Source: Gemmatimonas aurantiaca T-27
GTDB taxonomy: Bacteria > Gemmatimonadota > Gemmatimonadetes > Gemmatimonadales > Gemmatimonadaceae
Assembly: GCF_000010305.1 (NCBI RefSeq)
Contig: NC_012489.1
Coordinates: 4,533,646 to 4,597,645 of the forward strand
Direction: 5' to 3'
DNA length: 64,000 nt
The translations under genes were made by a program, and so were the position numbers. The notes under the pieces were generated by a model, which was not told the origin of the DNA, ran no database searches, and was given only the letters and a program-made list of their open reading frames with translations. Positions 31,438-55,533 of the stretch are shown here, piece after piece (within the stretch, counting starts at the first letter, position 1; each line of letters opens with the position of its first letter).

Positions 31438-31503
31438 CACGTTGCCTTGTAGTTCACTGCCGTTCCTTCAATCACCGAAAGATTTTTCAGGAGAGCTGCA
31501 CAG

Positions 31504-31995: not shown

Positions 31996-32009
31996 GCACG
32001 CGCCGCGCC

Positions 32010-32711: not shown

Positions 32712-32787
32712 TCCGCCGACGCACCGGTCTCTCCGAGGCTGGATCACCGTCTGCGGGTCGCGCGATTTCGCCTCACTTCTCCCCGGC

Positions 32788-34668: not shown

Positions 34669-34694
34669 CGGGCGCCGCCCGCTCGCGTCACACC

Positions 34695-35186
34695 ATGGCT
34701 CGCACAGAACTCGATCGCAACGTACAGCCCTCGCTGCTCGACCGTCTCATCGACGAGTCGCCGCTCGAGGGCGCTGACGCGCCCAAAACGCACGAAGAAT
34801 CCGCGCGGCTGTTCCGCATCTCGGTGCAGCGCGACGTGGAGTTGCTGCTGAACACCCGACGGTCGATCGTGCCCGTCGACATGATGTTTGGCGAAGTCCG
34901 ACGTTCCGTGCACGAATTTGGCCTGCCCGACACCACCGGGGCATCGCCTGGCACCCCCGAAGGACGCCAACGCCTGACCGATGAAGTCCGTGACACCATC
35001 CTGCGCTTCGAACCCCGTCTCGCCAACGTCACGGTGAACCTGAGCGAGAGCGATCGCGTCAAGACGCCACAAGTCCGTTTCATGGTGTCCGGCACATTGC
35101 GCATGGACCCCACCCCCGAGCAGATCATGTTCGACACCGTGCTCGACATGTCGACCGGTGCGTTTGACGTACAGGACAAGCCGTAG
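34695..35186 (+). CDS. tssE: T6SS baseplate protein TssE (gp25-like)
   Basis: 163 residues. The gp25-like pattern is visible: SLLDRLID, SVQRDVELLLNTRRSIV, VRRSVHEFGLPDTTG and RLTDEVRDTILRFEPRL. TssE is a wedge protein that nucleates the sheath at the baseplate. It lies 26 bp after tssA, in the usual order before tssF and tssG. Confidence 0.95.
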   Translation: MARTELDRNVQPSLLDRLIDESPLEGADAPKTHEESARLFRISVQRDVELLLNTRRSIVPVDMMFGEVRRSVHEFGLPDTTGASPGTPEGRQRLTDEVRDTILRFEPRLANVTVNLSESDRVKTPQVRFMVSGTLRMDPTPEQIMFDTVLDMSTGAFDVQDKP

Positions 35187-35260
35187 GTGTCGCGCTCCAG
35201 ACGTTCCTCCCTCTGCTGTGATCGCGCCCGCCATGAGCGTCCTGTGATGGACCGACGCTG

Positions 35261-37114: not shown

Positions 37115-38247
37115 CCGAGACGCCGGACGTGCCGCAGGCCGAAGGACTGGCCGATCCGTTCGCCACGGATGAATCGGAAAGATCGTCGGGCTTCACGACG
37201 ACCTTTCTCGAAACACCCGCGCGGGCGGAGGCGCGTCGTCGACTCGAAGGTGTTCTCGAACGCGAAGGGACCGGGTTCGAGTTCTTTCAGTTGATGCGGT
37301 TGTTGCAGCGCATGCACCCGGACCGCGACCCGGTGGGCGGGTGGTCCGATCCGCGCGGTGAAGTCGCCCGCATGCACGTGATCCCCACGCTCGCGTTTCC
37401 GCCGAGTGAAATCTCGGGAGTGGAGATCACGTCATCCGGTCCGCGGCGTAAACGCCGTGACAATGAACCGGCTCGGGTGGGCGTACGGTTTTTCGGTCTC
37501 GTCGGGCCACAGGGCGTCCTGCCGCAAGGATACACAGAGTATGCCGCCGGTCGGGCGCGTGCCCGCGACACCGGACTGCGGGACTTCCTCGACCTGTTCC
37601 ACCATCGGCTGCTGTCGCTGTTCTACCGTGCCTGGGAACGCCACCACACGTCGGTGGCCCTGGAACGGGGTGACGAAGACCGCATCCATGCGCATCTGCT
37701 CGATCTCGTCGGTGCCGGCAATGCGATCGGTCAGCGCAAGAGTGTGCTGCCCCCCGACACGATGGCGTACTACGCCGGGCTGCTGGCACTGCGCTCGCGA
37801 CCGGCCCTCGGGCTCGCACAATTGGTGTCGGACTACTTCGGTGTCACCGCCACGGTGGAACAGTTCGTGGGCGAATGGCGCATGTTGCCCGACGGCGGCC
37901 AGGTGTGCCTCGGCGATGACGACGCCGATGGTCGACTGGGCCAGGCCGTGATCGGCAGTGCGGTCTATGATCCACATTCACGCGTAGTGCTGCGCCTCGG
38001 GCCGCTGTCCCGCGCACAGTTCGACACGTTTCTTCCCCAGGGACGTCATCACAAGGTGCTCAAGTCCCTGGCGCAGTTTTACGCCGATGACGAGGTGGGC
38101 GTCGACGCGCAGCTAGTGCTCGCGCGCGATGAAGTCCCCTCGGCCTCCCTGGGTACCTCCACCTCCCCGCGACTGGGGTTCGGCACGTGGCTGCGCAATC
38201 GCACGCCCACGCGCGATCCGGACGACGTGCTGCTGCGCCTCTCCTGA
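37111..38247 (+). CDS. tssG: T6SS baseplate protein TssG
   Basis: 378 residues. TssG blocks FEFFQLMRLLQRMHPDRDPVGG, VRFFGLVGPQGVLPQGYTEYA and FLDLFHHRLLSLFYRAW. It pairs with TssF in the wedge. GTG start at 37111 overlaps the tssF stop. The family's GPxGxLPxxYTE element is kept with a small substitution (VLPQGYTEY). Confidence 0.96.
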   Translation: MTETPDVPQAEGLADPFATDESERSSGFTTTFLETPARAEARRRLEGVLEREGTGFEFFQLMRLLQRMHPDRDPVGGWSDPRGEVARMHVIPTLAFPPSEISGVEITSSGPRRKRRDNEPARVGVRFFGLVGPQGVLPQGYTEYAAGRARARDTGLRDFLDLFHHRLLSLFYRAWERHHTSVALERGDEDRIHAHLLDLVGAGNAIGQRKSVLPPDTMAYYAGLLALRSRPALGLAQLVSDYFGVTATVEQFVGEWRMLPDGGQVCLGDDDADGRLGQAVIGSAVYDPHSRVVLRLGPLSRAQFDTFLPQGRHHKVLKSLAQFYADDEVGVDAQLVLARDEVPSASLGTSTSPRLGFGTWLRNRTPTRDPDDVLLRLS

Positions 38248-38340
38248 GGTGCCGGTCATCACACCGCGCCGGCTGATCCTGCTGTTGGTCCTTCTCCTCC
38301 CGTTGCACACTGTCCCCGACCTTCTGCTGATGGAGTTGTC

Positions 38341-41004: not shown

Positions 41005-41108
41005 ACGGCAGTATGAACGGCGGTATGACGCAGGGTTCGGTGCCACGGCGTGATTCCCACGCCGTGCTGCACTCCCTGCAGTGCGGACCTTCATCGAGGA
41101 CATGCTGA

Positions 41109-43313
41109 ATGGCATGGTCACAGGCCAATCGGCCGTTCCGACTCAAGACGCCACTGGGAGAGGATGTGTTGCTCCTGGTGTCGTGGCGGGGCGAAGAGGC
41201 GGTCTCTTCGCTCTTCCACTTCACCGTGGTGGCCGCGAGCGAACGCAACGACATCAAGCCCAAGGAGCTGCTGCTCAAGGGTGTCACGCTGGAGCTCGAA
41301 CTCGGCGGCGGCAAGAAGCGCACGATCTGCGGTGTCGTACGTCGGTTCGCACGCGGTGGAGAGTACGCGGAAGGACATTCGACCTATCTGCTGGAGATCG
41401 TGCCCCCGCACTGGGCCCTCACGCTCGACAGCGGGTTCGACATCTTCCAGAACAAGACGGCGCGTGATGTGTGTGACAAGCTGCTCACGGGTACGCCCCA
41501 TGAGTGGAAGATGGTGCGCACCCTCGATCCGCGTCCCTATTGTTTCCGCTACCGCGAGAGCCGCTGGGCCTGCACGTCACGACTGCTGGAACAGGAAGGC
41601 GTCTGGTATCGCTTCGACCACAAGTCGGGCGAAGCCAAGCTGGTGATGGGCGACAACTCCTCCTCGGCCACGGGCGCGTGGGGACTGGATACGCTCAAGT
41701 ACGACCCGAACATGGCGGGTTCGCACAACTCGTTCACCGAGCCGGCCGTCTTCGATCTCAACACCGAAGCCGTCCCCCATCTCGCCAAGTCGAAAGTGCG
41801 TTCGGCCACCGAGTTTTTGGCCACCAACAATCTTTCCGAAGAAATCACCGGCAAGGCGGACGTCTACTCGGCGCCGTCCGATCTGGCCTGGTACGATTTT
41901 GATCAGCAGATGGGATCGCAGCACAGCGGCTTCAACCACAGTGGCGGAGAAACCGCGAGCGATGTCGCGAAGTTTCAGCCCGACACGAAGGTCTATGCGC
42001 GCCTGGCGCAGGAACGCTCGGAGTCCGAAGCGGTCGTGTATCGCGGACAGTCGCGATATGTCGGCCTGGAGTCCGGATCCAAGACCACCATCAGCGGCCG
42101 CCACTTCGAAGGATTCGACGGCAGTCTCTTCATCACCCGCGTCGAACATCACGGCAACAACGGACCGTACAGCACGGATGGGGAGCCGGCCAGCTACCGG
42201 AATTCGTTCGAGGGTATCCCGGCCGCCACGCCGTACCGTCCGCAGCGCACCACGCCATGGCCGCGCGTGGCGGGATCGCACGCGGGTACGGTGGTGGGTC
42301 CTGCCGGTGAAGAGATCTTCACGGATCCCCATGGACGGGTGCAGGTGGTCTTCAAGTGGGATCTCGACAACTCCACGAAACTGGAGCGCTCCTGCTGGGT
42401 GCGCGTGGCGCAGCCCTTTGCCGGTCAGGGATTTGGCGCGGTGTTCCTGCCGCGCATCGGACACGAGGTGATTGTCGATTTTCTCGACGGCAATCCCGAC
42501 AATCCGGTGATTGTGGGCAGTCTCTACAACGGCGCGAATCTGCCGCCGTGGAAATTGCCCGAAAACAAAACGCAGAGCGGTGTGCGCACCCAGAGCACGC
42601 TCAATGGCGGCTCCGACAACTACAACGAACTGCAGTTCGAGGACAAGAAGGGCTCGGAACTGATCAACGTGCAGGCGGAGAAGGACCTGAAGACGCTCGT
42701 CAAGAACGACGAGACGCGCACGGTCAATCACGACCGCACCACCACGATCAAGAACAACGAGACCAAGACGGTCAAAGAAGGTTACGAACACACGACCATC
42801 GAGAAGGGCGAGCAGGTCATCACCGTCAAGGACAACAACCGGACCCTGCACGTCGAGAAGGACCACACCATCACGGTGAACGGCAATGAAGCGTTCACGG
42901 TGAAGGGCAACCGCGACGGGACGGTGAAGGGCAACCAGGCCCACGCGATCTCGGGTAACGACGAAATGACGGTGAAGGGTAAGCAGACCACCACGATCAC
43001 CGGCAACGAAGCGATCACCATCGAGCAGGGCAATCAGTCCCTGCAGGTCAAGATGGGCAACATCGCCACCAAGGCCGATCTCGGGAACATCGAGACCAAG
43101 GCATCGCTCGGAAAGATCACACTCGAAGCGATGCAGATGATCGAACTCAAGGTCGGGGCCAACTCCATCCAGATCAGTCAGGCCGGCGTCACCATCAAGG
43201 GCATCATGGTGAAGATCGAAGGCACGGCCATGGCGCAGGTGAAGGCCCCGATGACGCAGGTCAACGGTGATGGCATGGTGATGATCAAGGGCGGCATCAC
43301 CATGATCAATTGA
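41109..43313 (+). CDS. vgrG: T6SS spike protein VgrG (TssI)
   Basis: 734 residues. The gp27-like N-terminus begins ANRPFRLKTPLGEDVLLLVSWRG..., and the gp5 OB fold contains GRVQVVFKWDLDN, RIGHEVIVDFLDGNPDNP and VGSLYNGANLPPW. A long C-terminal beta-helix of short repeats follows (VNGNEAFTVKGN, TVKGNQAHAISGN), ending in an Ile-rich DUF2345-like tail (GVTIKGIMVKIEG). No extra enzymatic domain is present, so cargo is likely non-covalent. 104 bp separate it from clpV. Confidence 0.96.
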   Translation: MAWSQANRPFRLKTPLGEDVLLLVSWRGEEAVSSLFHFTVVAASERNDIKPKELLLKGVTLELELGGGKKRTICGVVRRFARGGEYAEGHSTYLLEIVPPHWALTLDSGFDIFQNKTARDVCDKLLTGTPHEWKMVRTLDPRPYCFRYRESRWACTSRLLEQEGVWYRFDHKSGEAKLVMGDNSSSATGAWGLDTLKYDPNMAGSHNSFTEPAVFDLNTEAVPHLAKSKVRSATEFLATNNLSEEITGKADVYSAPSDLAWYDFDQQMGSQHSGFNHSGGETASDVAKFQPDTKVYARLAQERSESEAVVYRGQSRYVGLESGSKTTISGRHFEGFDGSLFITRVEHHGNNGPYSTDGEPASYRNSFEGIPAATPYRPQRTTPWPRVAGSHAGTVVGPAGEEIFTDPHGRVQVVFKWDLDNSTKLERSCWVRVAQPFAGQGFGAVFLPRIGHEVIVDFLDGNPDNPVIVGSLYNGANLPPWKLPENKTQSGVRTQSTLNGGSDNYNELQFEDKKGSELINVQAEKDLKTLVKNDETRTVNHDRTTTIKNNETKTVKEGYEHTTIEKGEQVITVKDNNRTLHVEKDHTITVNGNEAFTVKGNRDGTVKGNQAHAISGNDEMTVKGKQTTTITGNEAITIEQGNQSLQVKMGNIATKADLGNIETKASLGKITLEAMQMIELKVGANSIQISQAGVTIKGIMVKIEGTAMAQVKAPMTQVNGDGMVMIKGGITMIN

Positions 43314-43320
43314 GCGCGCG

Positions 43321-44016
43321 ATGACGATACCTCCGGTAATCGCCCCCGATCCGTTCGCAGCCTATCCCCCGGCAAGCCGGTGGCTGCTCGAGCGCAGTGC
43401 ACCCGATGAAGACGCGCTGGCGTTGCTCGACCCACGCCAGCCGATCGAAACGTTGTACAACGCCTGGATCGCGAAAGAGCTCTTCCCCGCTGCTCTCCGC
43501 CTCATCGCCGCCGTGCTGCCGGCGCGTGAAAGTGTGTGGTGGGCCTGGGTCTCCGCACGACATGCCACACAGGTCGTTGGTGGCGCGGCGGCCAACGCCG
43601 ACGTGCACAAGACCCTGGCCAGCATCGAACAGTGGATCGTACGTCCCGATGATGACGCACGTCGTGCCGCATGGGACGCGGGCACAGCGGCCGGTATGGA
43701 CACGCCGGTAGGCATGATCGCCGCCGCCGTATTCCTGAGCGGCAACTCGGTGGCGCCGGCCAATCTGGCTCCGGTGCCTCCACCACCAGGCGCAGCGATG
43801 CCACTGGTGGCGGGCGCCATTCTCTTGTCTGCGGCGTCCAATCAGAAGGCCGAACAGATCATGCCGACCATGTCAGCGTTCGCCGCGCAGGGCATGGAAA
43901 TCGTCAAGCGACTCGGCGGGTGGGAACCGGCCGTGCAGCTTGCCTATGACACTCACCAGCGGCTGGATCACGAGTACACCCGTGCCACCACACCCGCCCC
44001 CACGCCCGCGAGGTAA
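43321..44016 (+). CDS. DUF6931-type T6SS-associated protein
   Basis: 231 residues, with no signal peptide or membrane span of note. The pattern ALRLIAAVLPARESVWWAWVSARHA, an EQWI segment, and FLSGNSVAPANLAPVPPPPGAAMPLVAGA matches the DUF6931 family as I recall it, which is often encoded between vgrG and PAAR genes. Role unknown; an adaptor that loads PAAR or cargo onto VgrG is a reasonable guess. It starts 7 bases after the vgrG stop. Confidence 0.65.
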   Translation: MTIPPVIAPDPFAAYPPASRWLLERSAPDEDALALLDPRQPIETLYNAWIAKELFPAALRLIAAVLPARESVWWAWVSARHATQVVGGAAANADVHKTLASIEQWIVRPDDDARRAAWDAGTAAGMDTPVGMIAAAVFLSGNSVAPANLAPVPPPPGAAMPLVAGAILLSAASNQKAEQIMPTMSAFAAQGMEIVKRLGGWEPAVQLAYDTHQRLDHEYTRATTPAPTPAR

Positions 44017-44019
44017 GCC

Positions 44020-44319
44020 ATGCCTCCAGCGTCACGCATCACGGACATGCATGTCTGTCCGATGATGACCCCCGGCGTTCCACCCATTCCGCATGTCGGC
44101 GGGCCGATCGTGGTGCCCGGCGCACCAACGGTGCTGATCGCCATGCTGCCCGCTGCCACACTCGGCAGTATGTGTGTGTGCGTCGGACCGCCGTCGTCCG
44201 TCATCAAAGGATCGGCCACGGTGCTCATGGGCAGCAAGCCGGCCGCACGCATGGGCGACAATACGGCACACGGGGGCGTCATTGTCCTCGGCGCACCCAC
44301 GGTGATGGTGGGCGGCTGA
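44020..44319 (+). CDS. PAAR-domain T6SS spike tip protein
   Basis: 99 residues consisting only of a PAAR domain, with its typical glycine/proline turns (HVCPMMTPGVPPIPHVGGPI, VIKGSATVLMGSKPAARMGDNTAHGG). PAAR proteins cap and sharpen the VgrG spike and carry effectors; zinc is held by conserved His/Cys, here including H11, C13 and H84. A GAGGT motif precedes the ATG. No C-terminal toxin is attached. Confidence 0.92.
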   Translation: MPPASRITDMHVCPMMTPGVPPIPHVGGPIVVPGAPTVLIAMLPAATLGSMCVCVGPPSSVIKGSATVLMGSKPAARMGDNTAHGGVIVLGAPTVMVGG

Positions 44320-44840: not shown

Positions 44841-46661
44841 GTGCCTGCTTCGACCCTCACCCTGCTCCGCGTCGTCCCGGCTGGCCTGATGCTGCTCGCC
44901 GGCCTGGCACAGTCCGTGGTCGCTCAAACGTCCGGGGTCCGCGTGGCCCCGGCAGCCCCGGAGTTCGTGCGCCAGGCATTGCTCGTGGCGCCGTTCCGCC
45001 CCGACAGCACACCAGTGGGCCTCGCCAGCGCGTCGCGTGAACTCGCCGACGCGCTGCACGATCGTCTCGATCGCCGCCTCGAAAACCGCGAAACGCAGCT
45101 CCTCGAGTCGTTCCGCCTGCGCAATGTGCTCCTCGAGTCCGGTTACGATCGCAACGCCATCCTCGGCGACATCGAACTACGTCTGATGGCGCGCAAGATC
45201 CGCGCAGACGAAGTGGTGTTTGGGCGCGTCTCTCGGCAGGGCAACACCTACGTGGTCGCCGGCCGCGTGGCCCGACTGCGCAATTGGGACATGCAACAAC
45301 CGCTGCCCGTGGTGCGTGGCGCCACCGTCGCGCAGTTGGCCGAACGATTGGCGGAAGAAGTGGTGAAAGCCCGCGCGCAGCTTCCCGGGCTACGTCGATG
45401 CGAAAACGCGCTCGCAGCCCGCGACAAAGCCACGGCCGCGCGGGAAGCCTCGCGCGCCATACAGGCCTATCCGTCGGCAGTGATCGCGCGCGACTGCCTG
45501 CTGTCGGCACTGTTCGATGGCCAGACCGGCGCCGATTCCATTCTCGCGGTGGCCAACGATGCCCTGCGGATCGACAGCACCAACACCTACGCCGCCGTGG
45601 CGCGCGCCAATGCACTCGAAACTCTGAACCGGCGCAGCGACGCTCAGGTGCAGTGGGGCCGCATCTATGCCGCCCACACCGATTCGCTCGAACTGGGCAC
45701 CATCGTGGTGGAAGCGCTGCTGCGCTTGCAACAGCCGGACAGTGCACTGCACGATGCCCGGGCGCTCATCGCACACTTCGGCAGCAACGCTGAACTGCAG
45801 CGTCTGTCATTCCGCGCCCAGACCACCATGTCCCAATGGAAGGCGGCCGCCCTGCTCGGCGATTCGCTCGAACAGCGGGACAGCACCTTCCGCGCCGACT
45901 CCAACTACGCCACCCGCTATGTGGAAGCGCTGCGCCTGTCAGGAGACTCGCTCGGCGCACTCGAGCTGGTGGTGCGCAATGTGCGCCGCTTCCCGGGGGA
46001 CTCGCGCCTCTACCTGCAGTATCTGCAGCTCCTGGGCGCAGAAAATGGTGTCGCCCTCCAGCGTGGGCTCGAACGGTTCCCCGATGTGTCCACGCTGAAC
46101 GTGCTGGCTGCCAACGCCGCCCGGCGCACCGGCAACCGTGGTGCCGCCATGCGGGCCACACGCGAAGCCATCCGCAAGGACTCGTCGCTCACCCCACAAT
46201 ACCTGCAACTGGCCGACGGGTACTTCGACGAACAACGGCCCGACAGCGCCCTGTTCACGCTGTTGCACGCTCCCCGCGCCGGTGTTCAGGCAGAGATGCT
46301 GCGCACCTACGTCATCGCGCGCGGTGTCACCCTGCTGCGTTCGGCCGGTGATACGGCACCAACCGCGCAACAAATCGCGGTGCGCATGCTGGTACTGGCC
46401 GACAGCATCGATTCACGGGAAGACTCGCGCGCCTACGTGGCCGCGGCCGCGTTGCAGGCGTCGCGCACACAACTCGTGACAGCCAGCCGTTCCCGTGAGT
46501 GCGCCGCTGTGCGATCATCCGATGAAACGCTCAAGCTCAGCGCCGACGCGATCACCCGCGGGCTCGGCGAGGGTACCAACGCCACCGAGATCGGGTCGGC
46601 GTACGAAGCCATGAAAGCCGCCATCGACAACGCCACAAAAACGTTATGCAAAGAACCGTGA
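44841..46661 (+). CDS. Exported TPR protein with CsgG-like N-terminal domain
   Basis: 606 residues, GTG start with a signal peptide ending AQSVVAQTS. Residues about 45-150 resemble the CsgG-type domain (LVAPFRPDS, LADALHDRLDRRLENRETQLLESFRLRNVLLESGYD). Several TPR-like helices follow (CLLSALFDGQTGADSILAVANDALRIDST..., LEQRDSTFRADSNYATRYVEALRLSGD). It probably acts as a periplasmic scaffold; partners unknown. The start is uncertain because no Shine-Dalgarno is visible. The next gene starts inside its last 16 bases. Confidence 0.7.
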   Translation: MPASTLTLLRVVPAGLMLLAGLAQSVVAQTSGVRVAPAAPEFVRQALLVAPFRPDSTPVGLASASRELADALHDRLDRRLENRETQLLESFRLRNVLLESGYDRNAILGDIELRLMARKIRADEVVFGRVSRQGNTYVVAGRVARLRNWDMQQPLPVVRGATVAQLAERLAEEVVKARAQLPGLRRCENALAARDKATAAREASRAIQAYPSAVIARDCLLSALFDGQTGADSILAVANDALRIDSTNTYAAVARANALETLNRRSDAQVQWGRIYAAHTDSLELGTIVVEALLRLQQPDSALHDARALIAHFGSNAELQRLSFRAQTTMSQWKAAALLGDSLEQRDSTFRADSNYATRYVEALRLSGDSLGALELVVRNVRRFPGDSRLYLQYLQLLGAENGVALQRGLERFPDVSTLNVLAANAARRTGNRGAAMRATREAIRKDSSLTPQYLQLADGYFDEQRPDSALFTLLHAPRAGVQAEMLRTYVIARGVTLLRSAGDTAPTAQQIAVRMLVLADSIDSREDSRAYVAAAALQASRTQLVTASRSRECAAVRSSDETLKLSADAITRGLGEGTNATEIGSAYEAMKAAIDNATKTLCKEP

Positions 46662-47581
46662 CCAACAGCACACCGTGGATTGTGTCCAACGCCCGCATGC
46701 GCTCCCGGCGGGCGTTGCTGTTTCCGCTGTTGGCCCTCGGATCGGCGGTGCTGGTGACAGGCTGCGCCTCGGCGCCCAAACCGGCCGAGGTGCCGTCCAC
46801 GCCGGTGCAGATGGCCCCACCGGAACCGGTGGCTCCTGCGCCAACCGATGGCATGACGCCGGCGTTCACCGAAGCCTTTGCGGCAGCCGATCTGCGGGCG
46901 CGGTCCATCGCGTTCTATCAGCAGTGTGTGCCCACGGTGGCGCGCCTGCGCGCGGCCGGACGCTTTGGTGCGGCCGCGCGCGCGCCGCGAGCGATCTTCT
47001 GCGAGCGTGACGCCGAGGGCGTGCCTATCGGCGGCGTGTTCGATGTGGACAGCGCGTTCAAAGCTCCGCGTGGTCTGACCGCGGTGCGTCTCGATGGCGA
47101 TCGTCCGAAGTACACGGGCATCCTCGACACCGCGGCGATCGTGTCGCGCGCCAAACTCGCCCGTGATGTGAACAAGGTGGTCACGCCGGTGTGGGCGAAG
47201 CTCAAGCGTCCATTCACAGTGGTGCCGGTGACGGTGGCCAGTGGCACGCATGAGGCGTGGGTGATTCCGCGCGCCACGCGGGCGGGGTTTTTCGTGATGG
47301 GTGGTGATGCGGCGTATGTATCGGCGGCCACCGGTGTGTCGCAGACCGTGGACCACACAAAGACGTGGATGCAGATCGCCTTGCCAGCACGTGGCCAGGT
47401 GCGCATCACGAGTGCAGAGCCCAGCGTGGCCGCGGTGACCGACCTGGCGTCGGCGCGGTACTACACGGAGCTCGGACGCGATGTCACCGTGACCACGGCA
47501 GCGGCCACCAGCACCCTGGTACCGGGACTCGATCCGACGACCGGTGCGCGCGTGGTGTGGAAGCATCAGCCCATACGCTGA
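46646..47581 (+). CDS. Lipoprotein of unknown function
   Basis: Up to 311 residues with a lipobox (VLVTGC). The mature part begins Pro/Ala-rich, then an all-beta region (GVFDVDSAFKAPRGLTAVRLDGD; FTVVPVTVASGTHEAWVIPR). No known domain recognised. ATG at 46646 overlaps the upstream gene by 16 bases; an in-frame ATG at 46697 starts a shorter, more regular signal peptide. Its 3' end overlaps the converging small membrane protein gene by 16 bases. Confidence 0.7.
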   Translation: MQRTVTNSTPWIVSNARMRSRRALLFPLLALGSAVLVTGCASAPKPAEVPSTPVQMAPPEPVAPAPTDGMTPAFTEAFAAADLRARSIAFYQQCVPTVARLRAAGRFGAAARAPRAIFCERDAEGVPIGGVFDVDSAFKAPRGLTAVRLDGDRPKYTGILDTAAIVSRAKLARDVNKVVTPVWAKLKRPFTVVPVTVASGTHEAWVIPRATRAGFFVMGGDAAYVSAATGVSQTVDHTKTWMQIALPARGQVRITSAEPSVAAVTDLASARYYTELGRDVTVTTAAATSTLVPGLDPTTGARVVWKHQPIR

Positions 47582-48009
47582 GTCCAGCCGCCATCAGCCG
47601 GAGACTCTGCAAGTGGTACTCCACGGTTGAGTGCTTCCGCCGTACCAACCCAGATCGTGTACATGCCAAGCAGCAACAATGCTGCGGAAGAAATGCCACC
47701 CGGGAACCGACTGGCCACGAAGTTCCCGGCTATGACGATGGTCCAGAATCCCCAAATCAGACCTCGCTCCCGAGTCGCGCGCGAGGGTGAGCGAAAGTAC
47801 TGCTCCCGGTTCGCCACACGTCGCAGTTGAAGCTGTCCCCATCGTCCGATGGCAAGTATCACGAATGCAAAGACGATCTTCGGTGTCATGTTGCCGGGGG
47901 ACACGACGGGCCCAACGCCCATCGTATTCAATGCGGAAACCACCAGGCCAATTCCGAACAGCACCGTGGCCAGCGCAGCCCTGAGGACATACTGACGATC
48001 TTCACGCAT
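47566..48009 (-). CDS. Small membrane protein of unknown function downstream of the lanthipeptide genes
   Basis: 147 residues with four hydrophobic segments (ALATVLFGIGLVVSAL, PKIVFAFVILAIG, IWGFWTIVIAGNFVASRF, AALLLLGMYTIWVGT). GGGAG lies 6 bases before the ATG. It is 51 bp behind the Yip1-like gene, on the same strand as lanA1 and probably in the same operon tail. No family recognised. Immunity or transport accessory roles are possible because no LanFEG or LanI is otherwise found. Confidence 0.65.
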   Translation of the reverse strand: MREDRQYVLRAALATVLFGIGLVVSALNTMGVGPVVSPGNMTPKIVFAFVILAIGRWGQLQLRRVANREQYFRSPSRATRERGLIWGFWTIVIAGNFVASRFPGGISSAALLLLGMYTIWVGTAEALNRGVPLAESPADGGWTQRMG

Positions 48010-48060
48010 GACGATCTCCCGGACAGATGGAATGATGTTGTCTCGATTGCTGTCTCGTTC

Positions 48061-48735
48061 TCAGCTCACAAACCATTTGATGAACGTCAGGCTGGCCACG
48101 ATTCCGACCCAGGTGACGGCTGTTGTCCGCCAGATCTGCTGACGAGTCAATCCCTGCACGACATACCCGGCGCCCCACGCCACCAGTACCAGAGCATACA
48201 ACTCAAGCACATCGAGTCGAGCGAGCACGTGATGCAGTGCGCGATGCTGTTCCGCTGAGATGAGCCATCCGAGATTGGTGAGTACCTGCCCGGCAGGATC
48301 CGTAGGAAGGTCGAAAAACGCGCGCCCCACGAGCGCTGCGATCAACGACCCCAACTCGCATACCGATGCCGCAGTGAGCAGCACGGCAAACAGCGATCTC
48401 AGTGCAAATTTTCCGCCCTGGATCCAGAGAAGCGTGAACAGCGGCAGCGCCAACGCGGCGTACTCCGCCACAACGATGACGGCCTGTACGCCAAGGTTGA
48501 GCATCACCTTGTCCAACCGTCGTCCCGGGGCATACTGCACATAGAGCCAGCACACCCGATACATCGCGATGAGCAACACTGGCACCCATAGCTGGATTCC
48601 GGTACGAATCTCGACAAATGCCGACCGTGGGCTCACCAGCACGCTTGTCACGGCGCTCAGACTGCGGGTCAGACTGGATCGTGCCGATTGCTCGCTTGCC
48701 CCTGGGTCTTCTACCGCGACGTCCTGCGTCTTCAT
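48061..48735 (-). CDS. Yip1-like integral membrane protein
   Basis: 224 residues with about five membrane spans (LWVPVLLIAMYRVCWLYV, AVIVVAEYAALALPLFTLLW, FAVLLTAASVCELGSLIAAL, LYALVLVAWGAGYVVQGL and the C-terminal VTWVGIVASLTFIKW). The layout and the region ahead of the first span (VLVSPRSAFVEIR) fit the Yip1 membrane family. ATG at 48735 is preceded by GGGAGGAGG, a strong ribosome site, so the longer in-frame extension to 48867 is rejected. It follows lanA1 and its hairpin directly. A role in lanthipeptide immunity is an inference from position. Confidence 0.68.
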   Translation of the reverse strand: MKTQDVAVEDPGASEQSARSSLTRSLSAVTSVLVSPRSAFVEIRTGIQLWVPVLLIAMYRVCWLYVQYAPGRRLDKVMLNLGVQAVIVVAEYAALALPLFTLLWIQGGKFALRSLFAVLLTAASVCELGSLIAALVGRAFFDLPTDPAGQVLTNLGWLISAEQHRALHHVLARLDVLELYALVLVAWGAGYVVQGLTRQQIWRTTAVTWVGIVASLTFIKWFVS

Positions 48736-48773
48736 GGCCTCCTCCCGTTCGTACGGCGTGGTCTCGGCTCGAA

Positions 48774-48817
48774 GCTGCAACGCGTGTCGGATGACGACAC
48801 CCAACACGCGTTGCAGC
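48774..48817 (-). terminator. Hairpin behind lanA1 (attenuator or 3' stabiliser)
   Basis: Perfect 14-bp inverted repeat GCTGCAACGCGTGT/ACACGCGTTGCAGC with a 16-base loop, beginning 7 bases after the lanA1 stop and ending 38 bases before the Yip1-like start. No U-run follows on the minus strand, so partial termination or RNA protection is likelier than full termination. Confidence 0.7.
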
Positions 48818-48824
48818 GCAATCG

Positions 48825-49106
48825 TCAGGAGGCGGGGGGACAGCAGCCGATCGTTGACGCCCAACACGAGCCGTGCCAGAGCGTGTGGTCACACCCGGCA
48901 ACGCTCAGCATCTTGGTTGCTTGATCCCAGCAAAAACCGCCGGTGATCGATGCCTCGCCTCCTCGAGCGGACAAATTGCCGAGTGCTGCATCAGCGCCTT
49001 CCATCGAACCCGCGGGATGATCCGGCAATGCTGCGCGCGCATCTTCCGACAGCCCGTCCCGAAAGTGCGGATCTTTCCAGGCCCGCACGGCAAAATCAGG
49101 TGACAT
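48825..49106 (-). CDS. lanA1: Mersacidin-type class II lanthipeptide precursor A1
   Basis: 93 residues. Leader VRAWKDPHFRDGLSEDARAALPDHPAG is the mersacidin/lichenicidin-family pattern. Gly-Gly occurs at 49-50 and again at 56-57. The core after residue 50 has Cys59, 72, 81, 88 and 89 with Ser/Thr at 53, 55, 64, 68, 75, 80, 84, 85 and 93, enough for several lanthionine rings, and ends SCWASTIGCCPPAS. Ribosome site GGAGG. Located behind lanT, apart from the other precursor. Leaders of this group bind LanM, and LanT cleaves after GG. Confidence 0.9.
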   Translation of the reverse strand: MSPDFAVRAWKDPHFRDGLSEDARAALPDHPAGSMEGADAALGNLSARGGEASITGGFCWDQATKMLSVAGCDHTLWHGSCWASTIGCCPPAS

Positions 49107-49204
49107 GATGCCTCCATTGAATGACGCCGCGACAACTCCGTCGACTCGCAGCGCGTTGAAAGACGAGGTGTCGACTTCCCTCGCACATCCGGCGCAGTCT
49201 GTCG

Positions 49205-51400
49205 CTAACCGGCCTTGCGATGTTCTTCCATCAACCGGCTCTGCTCCATGGTTTCGCGATGGCTTCCCAGAACACCGCGCGGTGTCCCCGAGGCCACGAC
49301 ACGACCGTCCTTCATGACCAGCAGCCAGTCCACATCACCTACGACGTTCAGGCGATGGGAGACGATCACGCGCGTACATCCGAGTTCCGCCACGCGGGCA
49401 TTGACCGTCTTTTCGGTGCGCTCATCGAGATGACTGGTCGCCTCATCGAGCACGAGCAGATCCGGCTCATGCAGGAGCGCCCGCGCCAGCGCGAGTCGCT
49501 GACGCTGTCCACCGGATAGCGCCACACCCCGATCTCCGATCTGCGTGTGGTATCCCATCGGCATCTGCGCGATATCATCGTCGAGACAGGCCAGCATCGC
49601 CGCGCGTTTCACCGCACTGAGTGTCGCATCGGGAATTGCCAGCGCGATGTTCTCCCTGATCGTGCCACTGAACACGTCGAACTCCTGCAACACGGCTCCA
49701 GTGCGTGAGCGAAACCGCTGGCGATGTGCCTGGAAAGGCTCACCATCGTGCAACAGCTCACCACCGGTCGGCATCCATAGCCCCATGAGCACCTTGGCCA
49801 GCGTGCTCTTGCCAGATCCCGTTGGACCGATGATGCCCAGTGATCCCCCAGGCTCGATCTCGAACCCCACATCTTCGAAGGCCGGTCGCGATCCACTACT
49901 GAACCGAAACTCCAGGGCTTGGCATGCCAGGCGCCGCCCGGAATGACCACGGATCTTTGCAGGAAGGACCGGTGCGCTGATCTGGGTGTGCGCAGGAAGA
50001 TCCGATGCCACCTCTGGACTGCTGTCCAGCACATCCATGACTCGCTCGATGTAGGCACCGGCCGTCTGCAACTGCTGTGCGGATTGCATCAGAGCGAGCA
50101 CGGGTTGGGTGAACGAAGCAACCAATGTGGTCGCGGCAAGCATCTGCCCGAGACTGAGTGACCCGCTGTTCACCGCTGCCATGCCCATGACCAACGCCGT
50201 CAGGGGCGTCGCCAGACGCAAGCCTCCCAGCAGCGCTTCGATGCCGGTTGCCAGCAGCGTGGTTTCAAAGGTGGTCTGCTGGTGATGTTGGAACGCCTGA
50301 CGCCAGCGCGCGAGCATTCCCGACTCAGCGGCAACGGCTTTCACAAAAGCAATGCCGGTGAGCGTCTCGATGGTGCGTCCTTGTTCATCCGCTCTCGCGG
50401 CCAGTACTCTCACCGCCAGTTCGCGTTGCCTTCGCATGGCGAATACGAGAACAGCGATTTGTGCTGCCGCTGATGCGAGCGCGAGTACGGCCAACGGGGG
50501 CGACATCACGAACAGGATGGCCAGGAACCCCAACGCCATGGGCGCATCGAGACTGGCACCGATGAGCTGCGTAGTGAACAGCTCTCGTATCGCGGTGTTG
50601 CCGTGGACTCGTTGGAGTAGATCGCCGGTGGTTCGCTGAAGAAAGAACTGGTGGGGTAGACGCAACAGGTGATCGAAGAACTGCAGCGAGACGTGACCGT
50701 CGATCGTGCGCTGCAGTCGCGCGATGACATGCCCCCGAATCACAGATACGCCGATACGGGAGATCACCATGCAGACAATGGCCGCGACGACCGGGACCAA
50801 GCCGCGGCGACTCCAGGCGATCGTTGAGTCGACCAGTATGGCAGTGGCGGCTGGCACCAACAGACCGAAGAGTTGCAGTACCAGGGACGCCACAATCGCC
50901 ACCAACAGGTACTTCCTGGTGACCGTTGGTTCAAACAACCATCGGAGATAGCGCAGCAGTGGATTCGTATCGACAACATGCCGTGTTTCGAAATGCTGTC
51001 CGATCTCAAATTCGACGGCTGTTCCGGACAGATCCTGTTCCATGGCGTTCAGCGGCACACGTCGATAGCCAGCGGCGGGGTCGACAATGACCGCGTGGGT
51101 TTGTGTCAGGGACTCCAGGAGCACAAAGTGCCGCTCTCGCCAGTGCAGCAATGCCGGCAACTTGAGCGTGGCAAGGTCGTCGACCGTCACGTGTCGGCCA
51201 TAGGCCAAGAGCCCCTCCGCGTGCGCGACCTTGACCAACTCGGCCACCGAGAGGCCGTCACGTCCGGCATTGAGTTGATCACGGAGATGCTGCAAGGACG
51301 TACGGCGCCCGAAATACGTGAGCAACATGGCCAGACATGCTGGGCCACATTCCGTCTCGGACAGTTGCCGGATCGGCACCACACGCTGAGGGCGTGTCAT
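49205..51400 (-). CDS. lanT: Lanthipeptide leader peptidase and exporter LanT (C39 peptidase-ABC transporter)
   Basis: 731 residues. The C39 peptidase has Cys18 (ETECGPAC), His91 (ERHFVLL) and Asp107 (IVDPAAGY). Then a six-helix membrane domain (about 160-420), and an ATPase with Walker A GPTGSGKST near 524, LSGGQRQRLALARALL near 627 and Walker B LLVLDEAT. It would remove the leaders after Gly-Gly and export the peptides. ATG at 51400 overlaps the lanM stop (ATGA), so the two are translationally coupled; the longer upstream frame lies inside lanM. Confidence 0.95.
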   Translation of the reverse strand: MTRPQRVVPIRQLSETECGPACLAMLLTYFGRRTSLQHLRDQLNAGRDGLSVAELVKVAHAEGLLAYGRHVTVDDLATLKLPALLHWRERHFVLLESLTQTHAVIVDPAAGYRRVPLNAMEQDLSGTAVEFEIGQHFETRHVVDTNPLLRYLRWLFEPTVTRKYLLVAIVASLVLQLFGLLVPAATAILVDSTIAWSRRGLVPVVAAIVCMVISRIGVSVIRGHVIARLQRTIDGHVSLQFFDHLLRLPHQFFLQRTTGDLLQRVHGNTAIRELFTTQLIGASLDAPMALGFLAILFVMSPPLAVLALASAAAQIAVLVFAMRRQRELAVRVLAARADEQGRTIETLTGIAFVKAVAAESGMLARWRQAFQHHQQTTFETTLLATGIEALLGGLRLATPLTALVMGMAAVNSGSLSLGQMLAATTLVASFTQPVLALMQSAQQLQTAGAYIERVMDVLDSSPEVASDLPAHTQISAPVLPAKIRGHSGRRLACQALEFRFSSGSRPAFEDVGFEIEPGGSLGIIGPTGSGKSTLAKVLMGLWMPTGGELLHDGEPFQAHRQRFRSRTGAVLQEFDVFSGTIRENIALAIPDATLSAVKRAAMLACLDDDIAQMPMGYHTQIGDRGVALSGGQRQRLALARALLHEPDLLVLDEATSHLDERTEKTVNARVAELGCTRVIVSHRLNVVGDVDWLLVMKDGRVVASGTPRGVLGSHRETMEQSRLMEEHRKAG

Positions 51401-54400
51401 GCGGTGCCTCGCTCCGGCAGCGTGAGCGTCAACACATCGATGACCTGCTCGCCGCTCATTTTCAGGAGACCGAGTCCGACACCAGCGAGCCCGGTCATGA
51501 GCCCTGGCGTTTCTGTGCCCCGGGGGATGCCACACTGCACGCCCGCACGATCGATGGATTCCAGCACGCGTGTCGCGATGAAGTCGCTTTCGTCGCGAGT
51601 GATGCCACCGTCAGTGGTCCGAGCTGCGTCATGGAGGAGGGCGTAGTTTCCCAGCATGCCATGGCACAGTGAGTGGTTGCCGGTGAAGCCCCATCGCACC
51701 GTATCGCGAACGGTGCGTTCGAGATCGGTATGCAGTGCCTGCATCGCATGGACATCCGGCTGGTCTGCGAGCAGCGCCATGCGGGAGAGCCCAATCCCAG
51801 GCGCGCCGTGGCACCAGGCATGCATGGAGGGCCAGCCCCCCTCTGGGGGCTGGATCGCGATGCGTCGGTAGTCGGGCCACCGTCCGTTGGCGGCCTCATA
51901 CGCGTGACGTTCATATCGAACGGCCTGATAGGCCGCGTCAATCAAATCTGCGCGTCCGAGCCGTCGACCGGCTCGATGCAGTGCCAGAGCGATGCCGGAC
52001 GCGCCGTGCGAAAACCCCGTTAGCGGATGCGATGCATCAATAGGCGTCGTCCAGGCCCATCCGTCCTCGCGTCGCTCGGCGTTCCGCAAGAGCTGTTGAC
52101 CTGCCTGCTGCATGTGTTCGGCGATGCGTTCCCGAACTGCCGGAGAGATGCCAACGCTCTCGTCGAGCAATGTGCTGGACACCAGGAGATATCCGGCTAC
52201 GCCGGCGATGACATCCAACTGGTCGTCGCGCGCGATGTCTTGCCCTGCATACTCGATGAGTGATTCGGCCAGCGCGGCGTAGCGTGGTTCATGCCATACA
52301 CGTGCCGCGTGCGCCAGGACGAACGCTTCTCCGGCGTGCCCATGAAATGCGCTGCCGCCAAATGATCGTGGCTGCTCCGACAAAGCAGGTCTTTGATCGA
52401 CGCGCCACTGCATGCGACGGGCGCATGACTCGAGGGTCTTGGAAGCCAGTGCGCGGGCTTCGGGATGTCCGAGCAGACGATCGCATTCGAGAAGGAACAG
52501 TGCGACACCGAGCCTTCCGTTGTAGAGATCATCTCCCAGTGGCTGGAGCGACCAGTGTTTTTCATTGACCAGGGACACGCCGAGCCAGTTGGCATCGTCG
52601 TCGCGTTGCACGGCGAGATGGATGAGCCGATCGGCGATCCACCGGACGTAGTATCGAGCGTACTCCTGGATGTTGAGGGTCGTGGAAGGCTTCTCCTTTC
52701 CTCCGCCATCAGCGACGGGTGATGGTGTGCCGTGCGGGTCGGTCGCGAGTGCGGCGAGGGCTGCCTGGATGAACCAGCATTGACGATCGCAGTCGGCCCG
52801 ACTCAATGATTGCAGTCGTTCTTGCGCTCGTCCGAAGGCATCTCGCGCGAAGAAGCCCGGGATTTCCGTACCATCGGAAGCCCAAACCGACGTGCTGGCT
52901 GGGCGTGTGGTGAAATGTGGAATGTCGCCAAGCTGAAGGTCGGTGAGTTCATGGGGAATCAGCCGATCGAGCCAGGGGCGGGTCTCCACCGTTCGCCAGA
53001 GTGCGTCGAAGTGGATATCGCGATCGATGGCATCACGCAGCAGATCCGGATGATGGGAATCGCGCAGCAACGTGCCGTAGACCTTGGTATGACGAAACAC
53101 GGTGCGTACGTCGACCTGCCGGAACGCCTCGAGCAATCCTTCATTGCCCAGCAATTCATCGCCGTGTTCGACCAGGTGCAGATAGGCAGCGCGGAATCCA
53201 TGCACGATGGCGTCGGCATACGCGGCGGGATCGATGCGTTGTCCGGCGAGGTAGGGCTGGTTCTTGGCCTGGGGCAATCGGGCGCGCTGGCGTACGATGC
53301 ACATGGTGTCCTGCCCGATCGCCGAGAAGGTGGGTTGCTCCTCGGGAAGGAGTTGATCGGCCACGCCACCGATACCGCTGAGTTCGATCGCTTCGCCGTC
53401 GGTGTTGTGGTAGCTCCAACTGGGCAACAGTCCCACGCGCATGACGGAGTCGTGGTAAGCGCTCCATCCTCCATCGGGCTGCATGGTGGCTGTGTCACCG
53501 TCGTACACGACATCGTCGAACCGAGGATGGAACAGGGCCTCGAGATCCACGAGCACGGGGGTGTCCCCTTGAGCCATGACGTTCTCGAGGTGCATGTCTG
53601 TGGCGTCGAGCGCAAACAACAGCGCGAGCTGGGCGCCCAGGCGCCGATAGAAGGTGTGGATACCTTCTGTGTCGGCGCAGGGTTGGTGAGCAACGAACTC
53701 ACTCCATCCATAGGCGCCGCATGGCAGATGTGTCGGCTGGCGCCATGCGTGGTCACCCATGCCCGTCGCGGCCCAGCCGACGAGTTGTTGGAACGCGAGA
53801 TCGACGGCGAGTGAACGCGGTTTGTAGACGATGTGGCGACCGCTGTCGAACCCCAGGATGGTGACGCAGCGTCCCTGGTGGTGTTTGTCGCCGGCTCCGT
53901 AGGTGATTTCAGTGAGCACGCCGAGTGTGGCGCCATTGAGCAGGCGGGCCTCGATGGCGTGGCGGTCGGAAGACAGCCGCTGCAGCACCTCGAGGGAGTG
54001 TCGATACCAATGGTCCACCCGCTGTTCGATGGTGCGGAGCAGGACTGGGTATTCGTTGAAGATCGCCGACCGTGCCGCGTCGCTGTCGAGTGTGCGAATG
54101 AAGTGTTGAAAGCGCTCGTCGCTGGTCTCACCAACCAGCTCTCCACGAAGACGCATGACATTCACTTCCAGGATGAGCACCTTGGACACGCACTCCGCGA
54201 TATCGGACGCCAGTGCGGAACACGCGAGTTCCGCCAGGTGTTCGGGCGAGCGGCACAGCGGGCGTAGCCCTGGCAGGACGCGCAGCGCGTGCAGAAGCCG
54301 CGCTTGTGCGCCTCGCAACTGCGGTGCGGCGAGAAGAAGGAACCCGAGGAAGGCCTGGCGAGATCCGGAGGTGTTGGGCGCGGATGTGTTGTCGGGCGCG

Positions 54401-54822
54401 GGAACCGCCGCAGGAGCCGCCGCAGGAGCCGCCGCAGGAGCCGCCGCAGGAGCCGCCGCAGGAATCGGTTCAGCCGCATCGGACCACCATGCCGATGTGC
54501 CTGCGGGCGTGAAACGATCGGCTGGCAGGGCTTCTGAATCGAGGAGGAGCGGCAGGTCGTGGATCGAGAGCTGTTCCGTGCCAAGTCGCTGCGCAAACCG
54601 TTTGGCATTGCCTGCGCTGCATTGATCCTGCCAGCGCGCAGTGCGTCGCTGCGTTGGAGTGAGGGCTGCGGTTGGGGCAATGGTGGCAGCAGGCGTTGAC
54701 GTGTGCGCTGGAACGTCGCGCTGCAAGCCGGGCTGATGGAGCATCGGACGCGCGTGCCAACGGATGGCAGCGGCCCGTTCGCGGAGCGTCAATGCGCGCC
54801 GGAAGGCGTCGTCAGTGAGCAT
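51397..54822 (-). CDS. lanM: Class II lanthipeptide synthetase LanM
   Basis: 1141 residues. The N-terminal two-thirds is a DUF4135-type dehydratase. Key motifs include VTILGFDSGRHIVYKPRS, DMHLENVMAQGDTP and LVDLEAL near residue 407-423. The C-terminal LanC-like cyclase has zinc ligands in HAWCHGAPGI (Cys1004) and SLCHGMLGN (Cys1053-His1054). It phosphorylates and eliminates Ser/Thr in the core, then adds Cys thiols to form (methyl)lanthionine rings. An unusual Ala-Pro repeat linker lies at about residues 119-140. ATG at 54822 is used; no Shine-Dalgarno is seen and a GTG lies 22 codons earlier. Confidence 0.95.
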   Translation of the reverse strand: MLTDDAFRRALTLRERAAAIRWHARPMLHQPGLQRDVPAHTSTPAATIAPTAALTPTQRRTARWQDQCSAGNAKRFAQRLGTEQLSIHDLPLLLDSEALPADRFTPAGTSAWWSDAAEPIPAAAPAAAPAAAPAAAPAAVPAPDNTSAPNTSGSRQAFLGFLLLAAPQLRGAQARLLHALRVLPGLRPLCRSPEHLAELACSALASDIAECVSKVLILEVNVMRLRGELVGETSDERFQHFIRTLDSDAARSAIFNEYPVLLRTIEQRVDHWYRHSLEVLQRLSSDRHAIEARLLNGATLGVLTEITYGAGDKHHQGRCVTILGFDSGRHIVYKPRSLAVDLAFQQLVGWAATGMGDHAWRQPTHLPCGAYGWSEFVAHQPCADTEGIHTFYRRLGAQLALLFALDATDMHLENVMAQGDTPVLVDLEALFHPRFDDVVYDGDTATMQPDGGWSAYHDSVMRVGLLPSWSYHNTDGEAIELSGIGGVADQLLPEEQPTFSAIGQDTMCIVRQRARLPQAKNQPYLAGQRIDPAAYADAIVHGFRAAYLHLVEHGDELLGNEGLLEAFRQVDVRTVFRHTKVYGTLLRDSHHPDLLRDAIDRDIHFDALWRTVETRPWLDRLIPHELTDLQLGDIPHFTTRPASTSVWASDGTEIPGFFARDAFGRAQERLQSLSRADCDRQCWFIQAALAALATDPHGTPSPVADGGGKEKPSTTLNIQEYARYYVRWIADRLIHLAVQRDDDANWLGVSLVNEKHWSLQPLGDDLYNGRLGVALFLLECDRLLGHPEARALASKTLESCARRMQWRVDQRPALSEQPRSFGGSAFHGHAGEAFVLAHAARVWHEPRYAALAESLIEYAGQDIARDDQLDVIAGVAGYLLVSSTLLDESVGISPAVRERIAEHMQQAGQQLLRNAERREDGWAWTTPIDASHPLTGFSHGASGIALALHRAGRRLGRADLIDAAYQAVRYERHAYEAANGRWPDYRRIAIQPPEGGWPSMHAWCHGAPGIGLSRMALLADQPDVHAMQALHTDLERTVRDTVRWGFTGNHSLCHGMLGNYALLHDAARTTDGGITRDESDFIATRVLESIDRAGVQCGIPRGTETPGLMTGLAGVGLGLLKMSGEQVIDVLTLTLPERGTA
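54407..54466 (-). repeat. Tandem 12-bp repeat inside lanM
   Basis: Four perfect copies of GCCGCAGGAGCC plus one degenerate copy, in frame, encoding an Ala/Pro linker (AAAP units) in LanM. Copy number can change by slippage without frameshift because the unit is a multiple of three. Confidence 0.9.
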
Positions 54823-54852
54823 GGTGGGGTTCGTCGAGGGAGAGACGGAAAT

Positions 54853-54896
54853 CCGGAGGCGTGTCTCAGCACCGTGGTGGCAAGCCACGCCTCCGG
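54853..54896 (-). terminator. Hairpin between lanA2 and lanM (attenuator)
   Basis: 11-bp perfect stem CCGGAGGCGTG/CACGCCTCCGG with a 22-base loop that contains a second small palindrome (CACC-GT-GGTG). It starts 14 bases after the lanA2 stop, and only ATTTCCGTCT follows, so readthrough is expected. This is the usual way to make more precursor than synthetase. Confidence 0.7.
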
Positions 54897-54910
54897 TGTG
54901 AAACCCGCGA

Positions 54911-55195
54911 CTACTTCATGGCGCAGATCGCGTCGGTGGTCAGCCAGATGGTCATGCAGTCGGAGGTGCACACCGAGCCTCCCGTGAACGCCCCGCAGAA
55001 CTGGGTGAATCCCTGGCAACAGCCCAGTGTGAGCAGGAACTCGGTGCGGGACTCTCCACCCACGGCCGCACCGACCTCGGGATCGATGTTGGCGAGTTCT
55101 CCGGCCGGGTTGGCCGGGAGTGCCGCGCGGGTGGCGTGCGGCAGGCTGTCGCGGAAGTGCTGGTCCTTCCAGGCGCGAATGAGCGTATCGGTCAT
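54911..55195 (-). CDS. lanA2: Mersacidin-type class II lanthipeptide precursor A2
   Basis: 94 residues. Leader IRAWKDQHFRDSLPHATRAALPANPAGELA matches precursor A1 closely. Cleavage is expected after GG at 46-47. The 47-residue core has Cys59, 60, 67, 76, 80 and 91 and eleven Ser/Thr, with a central FTGGSVC segment, and ends TTDAICAMK. GGGAG is 5 bases from the ATG. First gene of the lan operon. The core differs entirely from A1, suggesting a two-component system. Confidence 0.9.
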   Translation of the reverse strand: MTDTLIRAWKDQHFRDSLPHATRAALPANPAGELANIDPEVGAAVGGESRTEFLLTLGCCQGFTQFCGAFTGGSVCTSDCMTIWLTTDAICAMK

Positions 55196-55406
55196 GGGGG
55201 CTCCCATTGGGTCGTGATGGGGGCACAGGCGATCGCCGCCAGGTGCAGCAGCGCGACGGCCTGTGGGTTGAGGTGCGCCGCCAAGGTGTGGCCGGTGTGT
55301 CATTGGCCTGTCATTCTCATGCGATCAATTGCGCTGCGAGGCGTTCATGGCGCAGCGCTCGCTGCGTCCCTTCGACGCACCCACATCCAATGCAAAACGA
55401 CAAAAC

Positions 55407-55430
55407 GGCGCCCGGGAGAACCCGAGCGCC
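55407..55430 (-). terminator. Rho-independent terminator of tRNA-Phe
   Basis: On the minus strand, GGCGCTCGGG-TTCT-CCCGGGCGCC (one internal mismatch) is followed by GTTTTGTCGTTTT (55406-55394). It lies 30 bases downstream of the tRNA and stops transcription before lanA2. Confidence 0.9.
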
Positions 55431-55460
55431 GCCTGTGCACAATGTCTGAACTGTCTACAG

Positions 55461-55533
<73 letters not shown>

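Follow-up and report, generated by a model that had tools for sequence, protein, structure and literature searches.

Organization of the lan locus

The window analysed here is a 64,000-nt stretch of the Gemmatimonas aurantiaca T-27 genome (bases 4533646-4597645 of a single contig of 4,636,964 bp). At positions 47566-55195 it carries a set of class II lanthipeptide genes on the minus strand, in the transcription order lanA1, lanM, lanT, lanA2, followed by genes for a 224-aa membrane protein and a 147-aa hydrophobic protein (Table 1). The latter two, at the left end of this range, encode membrane proteins and had been omitted from the original prediction.

Table 1. Features of the lan locus, its edge and the related precursors of a second genus (window positions unless a contig is named)
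Feature	Position	Strand	Basis or remark
lanA1, alpha-type precursor, 94 aa	54911..55195	-	TIGR03898 66.5 bits; alpha motif; alpha-core HMM; G418 and Micromonospora homologues
RNA hairpin, lanA1-lanM gap	54853..54896	-	21-nt arms, 81% complementary; z -3.3 (96-nt stretch)
lanM, class II lanthipeptide synthetase, CHG type	51397..54822	-	TIGR03897 983 bits; Pfam DUF4135 and LANC_like; catalytic and zinc residues
lanT, C39 peptidase-ABC exporter	49205..51400	-	Pfam Peptidase_C39, ABC_membrane, ABC_tran
lanA2, beta-type precursor, 93 aa	48825..49106	-	TIGR03898 53.2 bits; beta motif; beta-core HMM; G418 homologue
Strong RNA hairpin directly after lanA2	48774..48817	-	20-nt arms, 90% complementary, 4-nt loop; z -6.0 (101-nt stretch)
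224-aa membrane protein, distant YknW (Yip1-type) relative	48061..48735	-	NF052650 YknW_fam 29.5 bits, E 4.9e-7 (below the curated NCBIfam cut-off of 110 bits; distant relative only)
147-aa hydrophobic protein, last gene of insert	47566..48009	-	Hydropathy
tRNA-Phe	55460..55533	-	Edge of variable slot, conserved in genus; outside lan locus
G418 alpha precursor	L145 14101-13802		On one strand with rest of its locus
G418 beta precursor	L145 8141-7845		On one strand with rest of its locus

To the left, the locus is bordered by a gene for a 311-aa protein (46646-47581) that is present in 25 of the 30 Gemmatimonas genomes. In L138, L140 and L142, the three relatives in which both edges could be covered, this gene lies near tRNA-Phe, followed by genes that in the window also stand to the right of the lan locus. 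The slot between the two edges carries different genes in these relatives and the lan locus in the window. Because other genes occupy the slot in relatives, and because the 29 other Gemmatimonas genomes all lack the gene for the 224-aa protein, the lan locus is an accessory insert in a slot of variable content next to tRNA-Phe. It was absent from the other Gemmatimonas genomes searched, which confines it to one species of the genus among those covered, and the gene for the 147-aa protein gave no tblastn match in seven other Gemmatimonas regions. Neighbouring genes with family matches (PTPS, an AraC-type regulator, QueF, a rhomboid protein and a D-Ala-D-Ala ligase) lie outside the lan cluster, and relatives too have them close to this slot. 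A phage origin of the locus was rejected, as PHROGs gave no match.

The RNA hairpin after lanA1 is weaker than that after lanA2 and is probably an attenuator or processing stem. A simple scan, limited to one promoter type, found no sigma-70-like promoter. Outside the locus, a terminator-like strong stem of 14 pairs lies on the minus strand at 55403-55434, after tRNA-Phe and before lanA1. Just left of the locus, the plus strand carries a type VI secretion cluster (29959-44319), with genes for TssC (VipB), ImpE, TssA (VasJ/ImpA), TssF, TssG, a ClpB-type AAA ATPase (ClpV-like), a VgrG-like baseplate protein, DUF6931 and PAAR proteins.

Precursors, synthetase and exporter

Both precursors were recognized by TIGR03898, the model of the mersacidin/lichenicidin-family leader (cut-off 23.5 bits), and they are its sole matches in the whole genome. 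LanA1 consists of a 47-aa leader with a terminal GG and a 47-aa core, ESRTEFLLTLGCCQGFTQFCGAFTGGSVCTSDCMTIWLTTDAICAMK, with 6 Cys and 11 Ser/Thr; in LanA2 the leader extends up to SARGG (or ITGG) and the core is EASITGGFCWDQATKMLSVAGCDHTLWHGSCWASTIGCCPPAS, with 5 Cys and 9 Ser/Thr. The leaders are alike and the cores unrelated (Smith-Waterman z about 1). The calculated monoisotopic mass without modification is 5046.22 Da for the alpha core and 4483.93 Da for the beta core (3868.64 Da for cleavage after ITGG); every dehydration, up to 11 and 9 respectively, would lower it by 18.011 Da. Nitrile hydratase alpha models also matched LanA2 weakly (E 0.014), next to its strong TIGR03898 match. Membership of the cores themselves in the mersacidin/lichenicidin family was rejected: the leaders match, but the lipid II motif CTxTx[DE]C is missing, LanA1 having only CTSDC. 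Plasmid records that matched LanA1 were likewise set aside, since the match is confined to the leader.

LanM is the only synthetase of its kind in the genome, which holds a single DUF4135 match. Its zinc ligands C1004, C1053 and H1054 are present in WCHG...LCHG, as are K334, D409/H411/N414 and D426/E428, and all of these residues except H1054 are invariant across four aligned LanMs. The NHSLCHG sequence assigns the enzyme to the CHG type. Translation probably starts at the ATG at 54822 rather than at the GTG at 54888. An Ala-Pro repeat, AAAPAAAPAAAP, in the N-terminal region (54390-54480) is an apparent flexible linker. Elsewhere in the genome there is a stand-alone 511-aa LanC-like protein (L002 1441-2976, minus strand; genome about 3733967-3735103), which was rejected as a second synthetase because it lacks a dehydratase domain.

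Translation of lanT likely starts at ATG 51400, which gives a 4-base overlap (ATGA) with the stop codon of lanM. LanT is expected to cleave after GG and to export both peptides. Its closest homologues are exporters of Acidobacteria and Chloroflexi (Chloroflexota), and for this reason it was rejected as a roseocin marker. The locus as a whole has the makings of a class II system: a LanM with a dehydratase and a zinc-ligand cyclase, and precursors with a class II leader and a core containing both Cys and Ser/Thr. The original prediction of two precursors with similar leaders and dissimilar cores, of a LanM with its zinc and dehydratase motifs and of a C39-type LanT was therefore borne out at each gene. 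Its term "mersacidin-type" holds for the leaders; the cores are roseocin-like instead.

Roseocin-type signatures in the cores

The roseocin family is defined by two core motifs, an alpha motif S/TxxxxTxGCC near the N-terminus of the core and a beta motif GS/TxxxxS/TxGCC at the C-terminus, together with a nitrile-hydratase-like (NHLP) leader, a CHG-type LanM from the actinobacterial RosM clade and synergy of the two modified peptides against bacteria (PMC10027976). The motifs were set by that independent study, were noticed by us after reading it and were tested once. The LanA1 core starts with ESR-TEFLLTLGCC, so that its alpha motif [ST]x4TxGCC begins at core position 4; the LanA2 core ends with GSCWASTIGCC-PPAS, in which four residues follow the beta motif G[ST]x4[ST]xGCC. 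Per 200,000 shuffled cores, the alpha motif came up 495 times and the beta motif 44 times.

For comparison, 68 loci with related LanMs were collected from about 85,000 species genomes, and all leader-bearing precursors in them were found with a leader profile. The pair of alpha and beta motifs was present in loci of Streptomyces, Glycomyces, Micromonospora and Catellatospora and in the window only; a Pseudopropionibacterium locus had the beta motif alone. The pair was missing from every cyanobacterial, chloroflexotal, acidobacterial, bacteroidotal and bacillotal locus collected, and neither motif was found in any other non-actinobacterial leader-bearing peptide of the set. Three other Gemmatimonadota loci, G361 (Longimicrobium), G223 and G230, were rejected as relatives because they have leaders without the alpha or beta motif.

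Several loci of the set have multiple precursors. For example, Streptomyces sp. CB02056 has five leader-bearing precursors in tandem behind one LanM (L088 15146-16435), one of them alpha-like and four with terminal beta-like GCC blocks. In Thermosporothrix hazakensis, of the Chloroflexota, four precursors with near-identical leaders lie upstream of one LanM (L116 8197-9471), and their cores are unusual, being extremely Gly/Trp-rich or Cys/His/Tyr-rich. A Bdellovibrionales MAG has two precursors beside a LanM (L098 111-896), with cores made of tandem repeats (STSWQGC and TQYMGCD).

The likeness was also recovered by a check independent of the motifs as such, with profile HMMs built from the actinobacterial alpha and beta cores alone and run on all peptides of the set and on 2000 shuffled cores. 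LanA1 (15.4 bits with the alpha HMM) and LanA2 (16.7 bits with the beta HMM) ranked directly after the actinobacterial build members and above every shuffle, the best of which reached 11.8 and 10.9 bits, respectively. In alignments restricted to the cores, LanA1 matched the alpha cores of Micromonospora (z 7.4) and of G418, a second Gemmatimonadaceae genome described below (z 14), and LanA2 matched the beta cores of G418 (z 10), Micromonospora (z 7.0) and Streptomyces (z 5.0). All matches were alpha to alpha or beta to beta, with none across. The alpha likeness to Micromonosporaceae reaches past the motif, as RTExLxTLGCCxGFT (z 7).

A second Gemmatimonadaceae genus and the LanM phylogeny

Among 179 Gemmatimonadaceae genomes, TIGR03898 matches above the cut-off were found in two, that of the window itself and G418, a draft genome (77% complete) of another genus. 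The G418 locus (L145 7204-14173) has the same order as the window, alpha-LanM-LanT-beta-membrane protein, all on one strand. Its alpha core reads TTEYAETLGCCQGITQ...VCTTLCVTVWWTTRSVC, against RTEFLLTLGCCQGFTQ...VCTSDCMTIWLTTDAIC in the window, and its beta core ends with CVATLWSGTCAVSSVGCCP, against CDHTLWHGSCWASTIGCCP. Both motifs and an alpha C-terminus of the form CxTxWxTTxxxC are common to the two. The NHLP model gave a weak match to the G418 beta peptide (E 0.02), and tRNA-Phe was not found on the G418 contig.

The two LanMs are only 36% identical. In a tree to which the G418 and G223 enzymes had been added, the G418 LanM was sister to that of the window at 98/96. One LanM tree grouped the window enzyme with the actinobacterial roseocin-type LanMs, to which it is 31-37% identical, at 96/99; the tree with G418 and G223 did not recover this grouping. 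AU tests did not reject the alternatives, including a tie of the window LanM to Longimicrobium (p 0.13). Because the two trees disagree and the AU tests do not decide between them, the LanM phylogeny was not used as proof of shared ancestry. Core homology therefore outruns the enzymes as evidence, and recombination of the cores into a different synthetase background is possible.

In both genomes the gene directly after beta encodes a membrane protein whose best match is YknW_fam (33.0 bits in G418, under the curated cut-off of 110). YknW, a Yip1-family protein, belongs to the YknWXYZ system by which Bacillus is protected from the SDP peptide toxin that it makes itself (PMC4887032). Because YknWXYZ shields Bacillus from SDP and a YknW-like protein follows beta in both genomes, the 224-aa protein is the likeliest candidate for self-protection. 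Neither a LanFEG-type immunity transporter nor a membrane-fusion or outer-membrane partner for export was found within the lan locus, and the 147-aa protein had no family match.

A probable two-component lantibiotic and its alternatives

Judged from sequence, the product of the locus is probably a roseocin-type two-component lantibiotic. LanM would recognize the leader common to both precursors, dehydrate Ser/Thr and form the thioether rings of both dissimilar cores; LanT would then remove both leaders at the double Gly and export the peptides. The N-terminal TxxxxTxGCC block of LanA1 is the counterpart of the conserved overlapping-ring block in roseocin alpha. The alpha peptide would dock on a cell-envelope target of competitor bacteria, which is lipid II in known two-component systems, and the beta peptide, with its C-terminal GSxxxxTxGCC ring block, would join alpha and permeabilize the membrane. 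The YknW-like protein encoded after beta would give self-protection. We infer all of these steps, from the modification of both cores and their ring pattern to export, synergy, target and immunity.

Another reading of the gene content is that one promiscuous LanM modifies two independent, single-component lanthipeptides, as with the prochlorosins, with no synergy and perhaps with a role other than antibiosis. There is precedent in the set for one LanM with several unlike cores, for example the four precursors of T. hazakensis. However, two genera have kept exactly one alpha-like and one beta-like core together and at matching positions, core conservation extends across phyla, and the LanM is of the CHG type, whereas highly promiscuous synthetases are of the CCG type; we consider this reading unlikely. 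A different objection would be that the GCC motifs arose independently, overlapping -T-x-G-C-C rings being favoured by LanM chemistry, so that neither common descent nor shared action is implied. The motifs are short, and the position of the window enzyme relative to RosM shifts between trees without the AU tests rejecting any alternative. Such convergence would nevertheless have to account for a likeness that goes past the motif and is specific to alpha-alpha and beta-beta pairs, and for the lack of either motif in the other non-actinobacterial leader-bearing peptides of the set, and we regard it as very unlikely.

It is equally improbable, in our view, that the cluster is silent or decaying and yields no product. 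Its occurrence in a single species among those searched and the outcome of the promoter scan would fit such a state, but the reading frames and catalytic motifs are all intact, and an RNA hairpin behind each lanA gene is in keeping with an ordered operon.

The presence of an alpha/beta pair in two Gemmatimonadaceae genera would mean that both peptides are transferred or retained together across phyla. The Gemmatimonadaceae cores would then tell which ring blocks are essential and supply natural variants, and the type strain T-27 would be a culturable candidate producer. The pair also raises the question of how a diderm producer achieves self-protection and peptide export when its cluster has neither LanFEG nor a tripartite exporter. 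A more far-reaching idea, which we offer tentatively and hold to be possible rather than probable, is that the Gemmatimonadaceae have an old two-component lantibiotic branch of their own in diderms, with alpha and beta cores common to the actinobacterial roseocins, the two precursors placed apart in the operon and a YknW-like protein as a new means of self-protection replacing LanFEG.

Comparison with known systems

Conserved cores of the roseocin family have been reported only inside the Actinomycetota, with no significant core conservation in other phyla (PMC10027976). A broad mersacidin/haloduracin-like subfamily has been listed as extending to Gemmatimonadetes, besides other phyla (PMC11251773), and one antiSMASH lanthipeptide cluster has been counted, without description, for G. 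aurantiaca T-27 (PMC11271474, Table 1). In the main texts of the open-access papers searched, we found none that describes the locus or joins G. aurantiaca with a lantibiotic. The original prediction had called the locus undescribed, which stands for the locus itself and has to be qualified for the cluster count. Its assignment to a two-peptide class II system with one LanM in a member of the Gemmatimonadota is supported by protein families, genome-wide counts and comparative genomics; its suggestion of a two-component antibiotic gains backing from the homology of the cores to roseocin alpha and beta and from the same arrangement in a second genus.

With lacticin 3147, haloduracin and lichenicidin, the locus shares the two-component principle, class II chemistry and the mersacidin/lichenicidin-type leader family. 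These systems have two dedicated LanMs and an alpha peptide with CTxTx[D/E]C, whereas the window has neither. Cytolysin, carnolysin and bicereucin of the Firmicutes resemble it in having one LanM for two peptides (PMC10027976) and belong to a different phylum.

One of the nearest known systems is roseocin of Streptomyces roseosporus (type 2; PMC10027976), which has been reported active against clinically relevant Gram-positive pathogens. Both systems have two precursors with similar leaders and dissimilar cores, one CHG-type LanM and one peptidase-containing LanT, and in both the alpha peptide has S/TxxxxTxGCC and 6 Cys, the beta peptide has GS/TxxxxS/TxGCC and CTxTx[D/E]C is lacking. They differ in host (Gemmatimonadota as against Actinomycetota) and in gene order, which is alpha-M-T-beta in the window, whereas both roseocin precursors lie upstream of lanM. 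In place of the RosF group of roseocin, the window has a YknW-like protein. The cores differ in length, Ser/Thr number and middle region, the alpha core of the window being longer, with 11 Ser/Thr as against 5. About 34% identity was found between the window LanM and the LanM of Streptomyces ADI96-02, whose cores are reported to be identical to those of roseocin (PMC9576775).

Types 1 and 2 of the roseocin family have one LanM (PMC10027976), as does the window. Among actinobacterial cores, those of type 3 (Micromonospora and Catellatospora) come closest, with alpha RTEGLWTLGCCGGFT as against RTEFLLTLGCCQGFT in the window and beta NGTCAAFTVGCCG as against HGSCWASTIGCCP. The alpha peptide of type 3 is enlarged, with 9 Cys as against 6 in the window, and type 3 loci have two LanMs where the window has a single one. 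From these sequence comparisons, the locus is most likely a Gemmatimonadaceae branch of the roseocin-type lantibiotics with a distinct layout.
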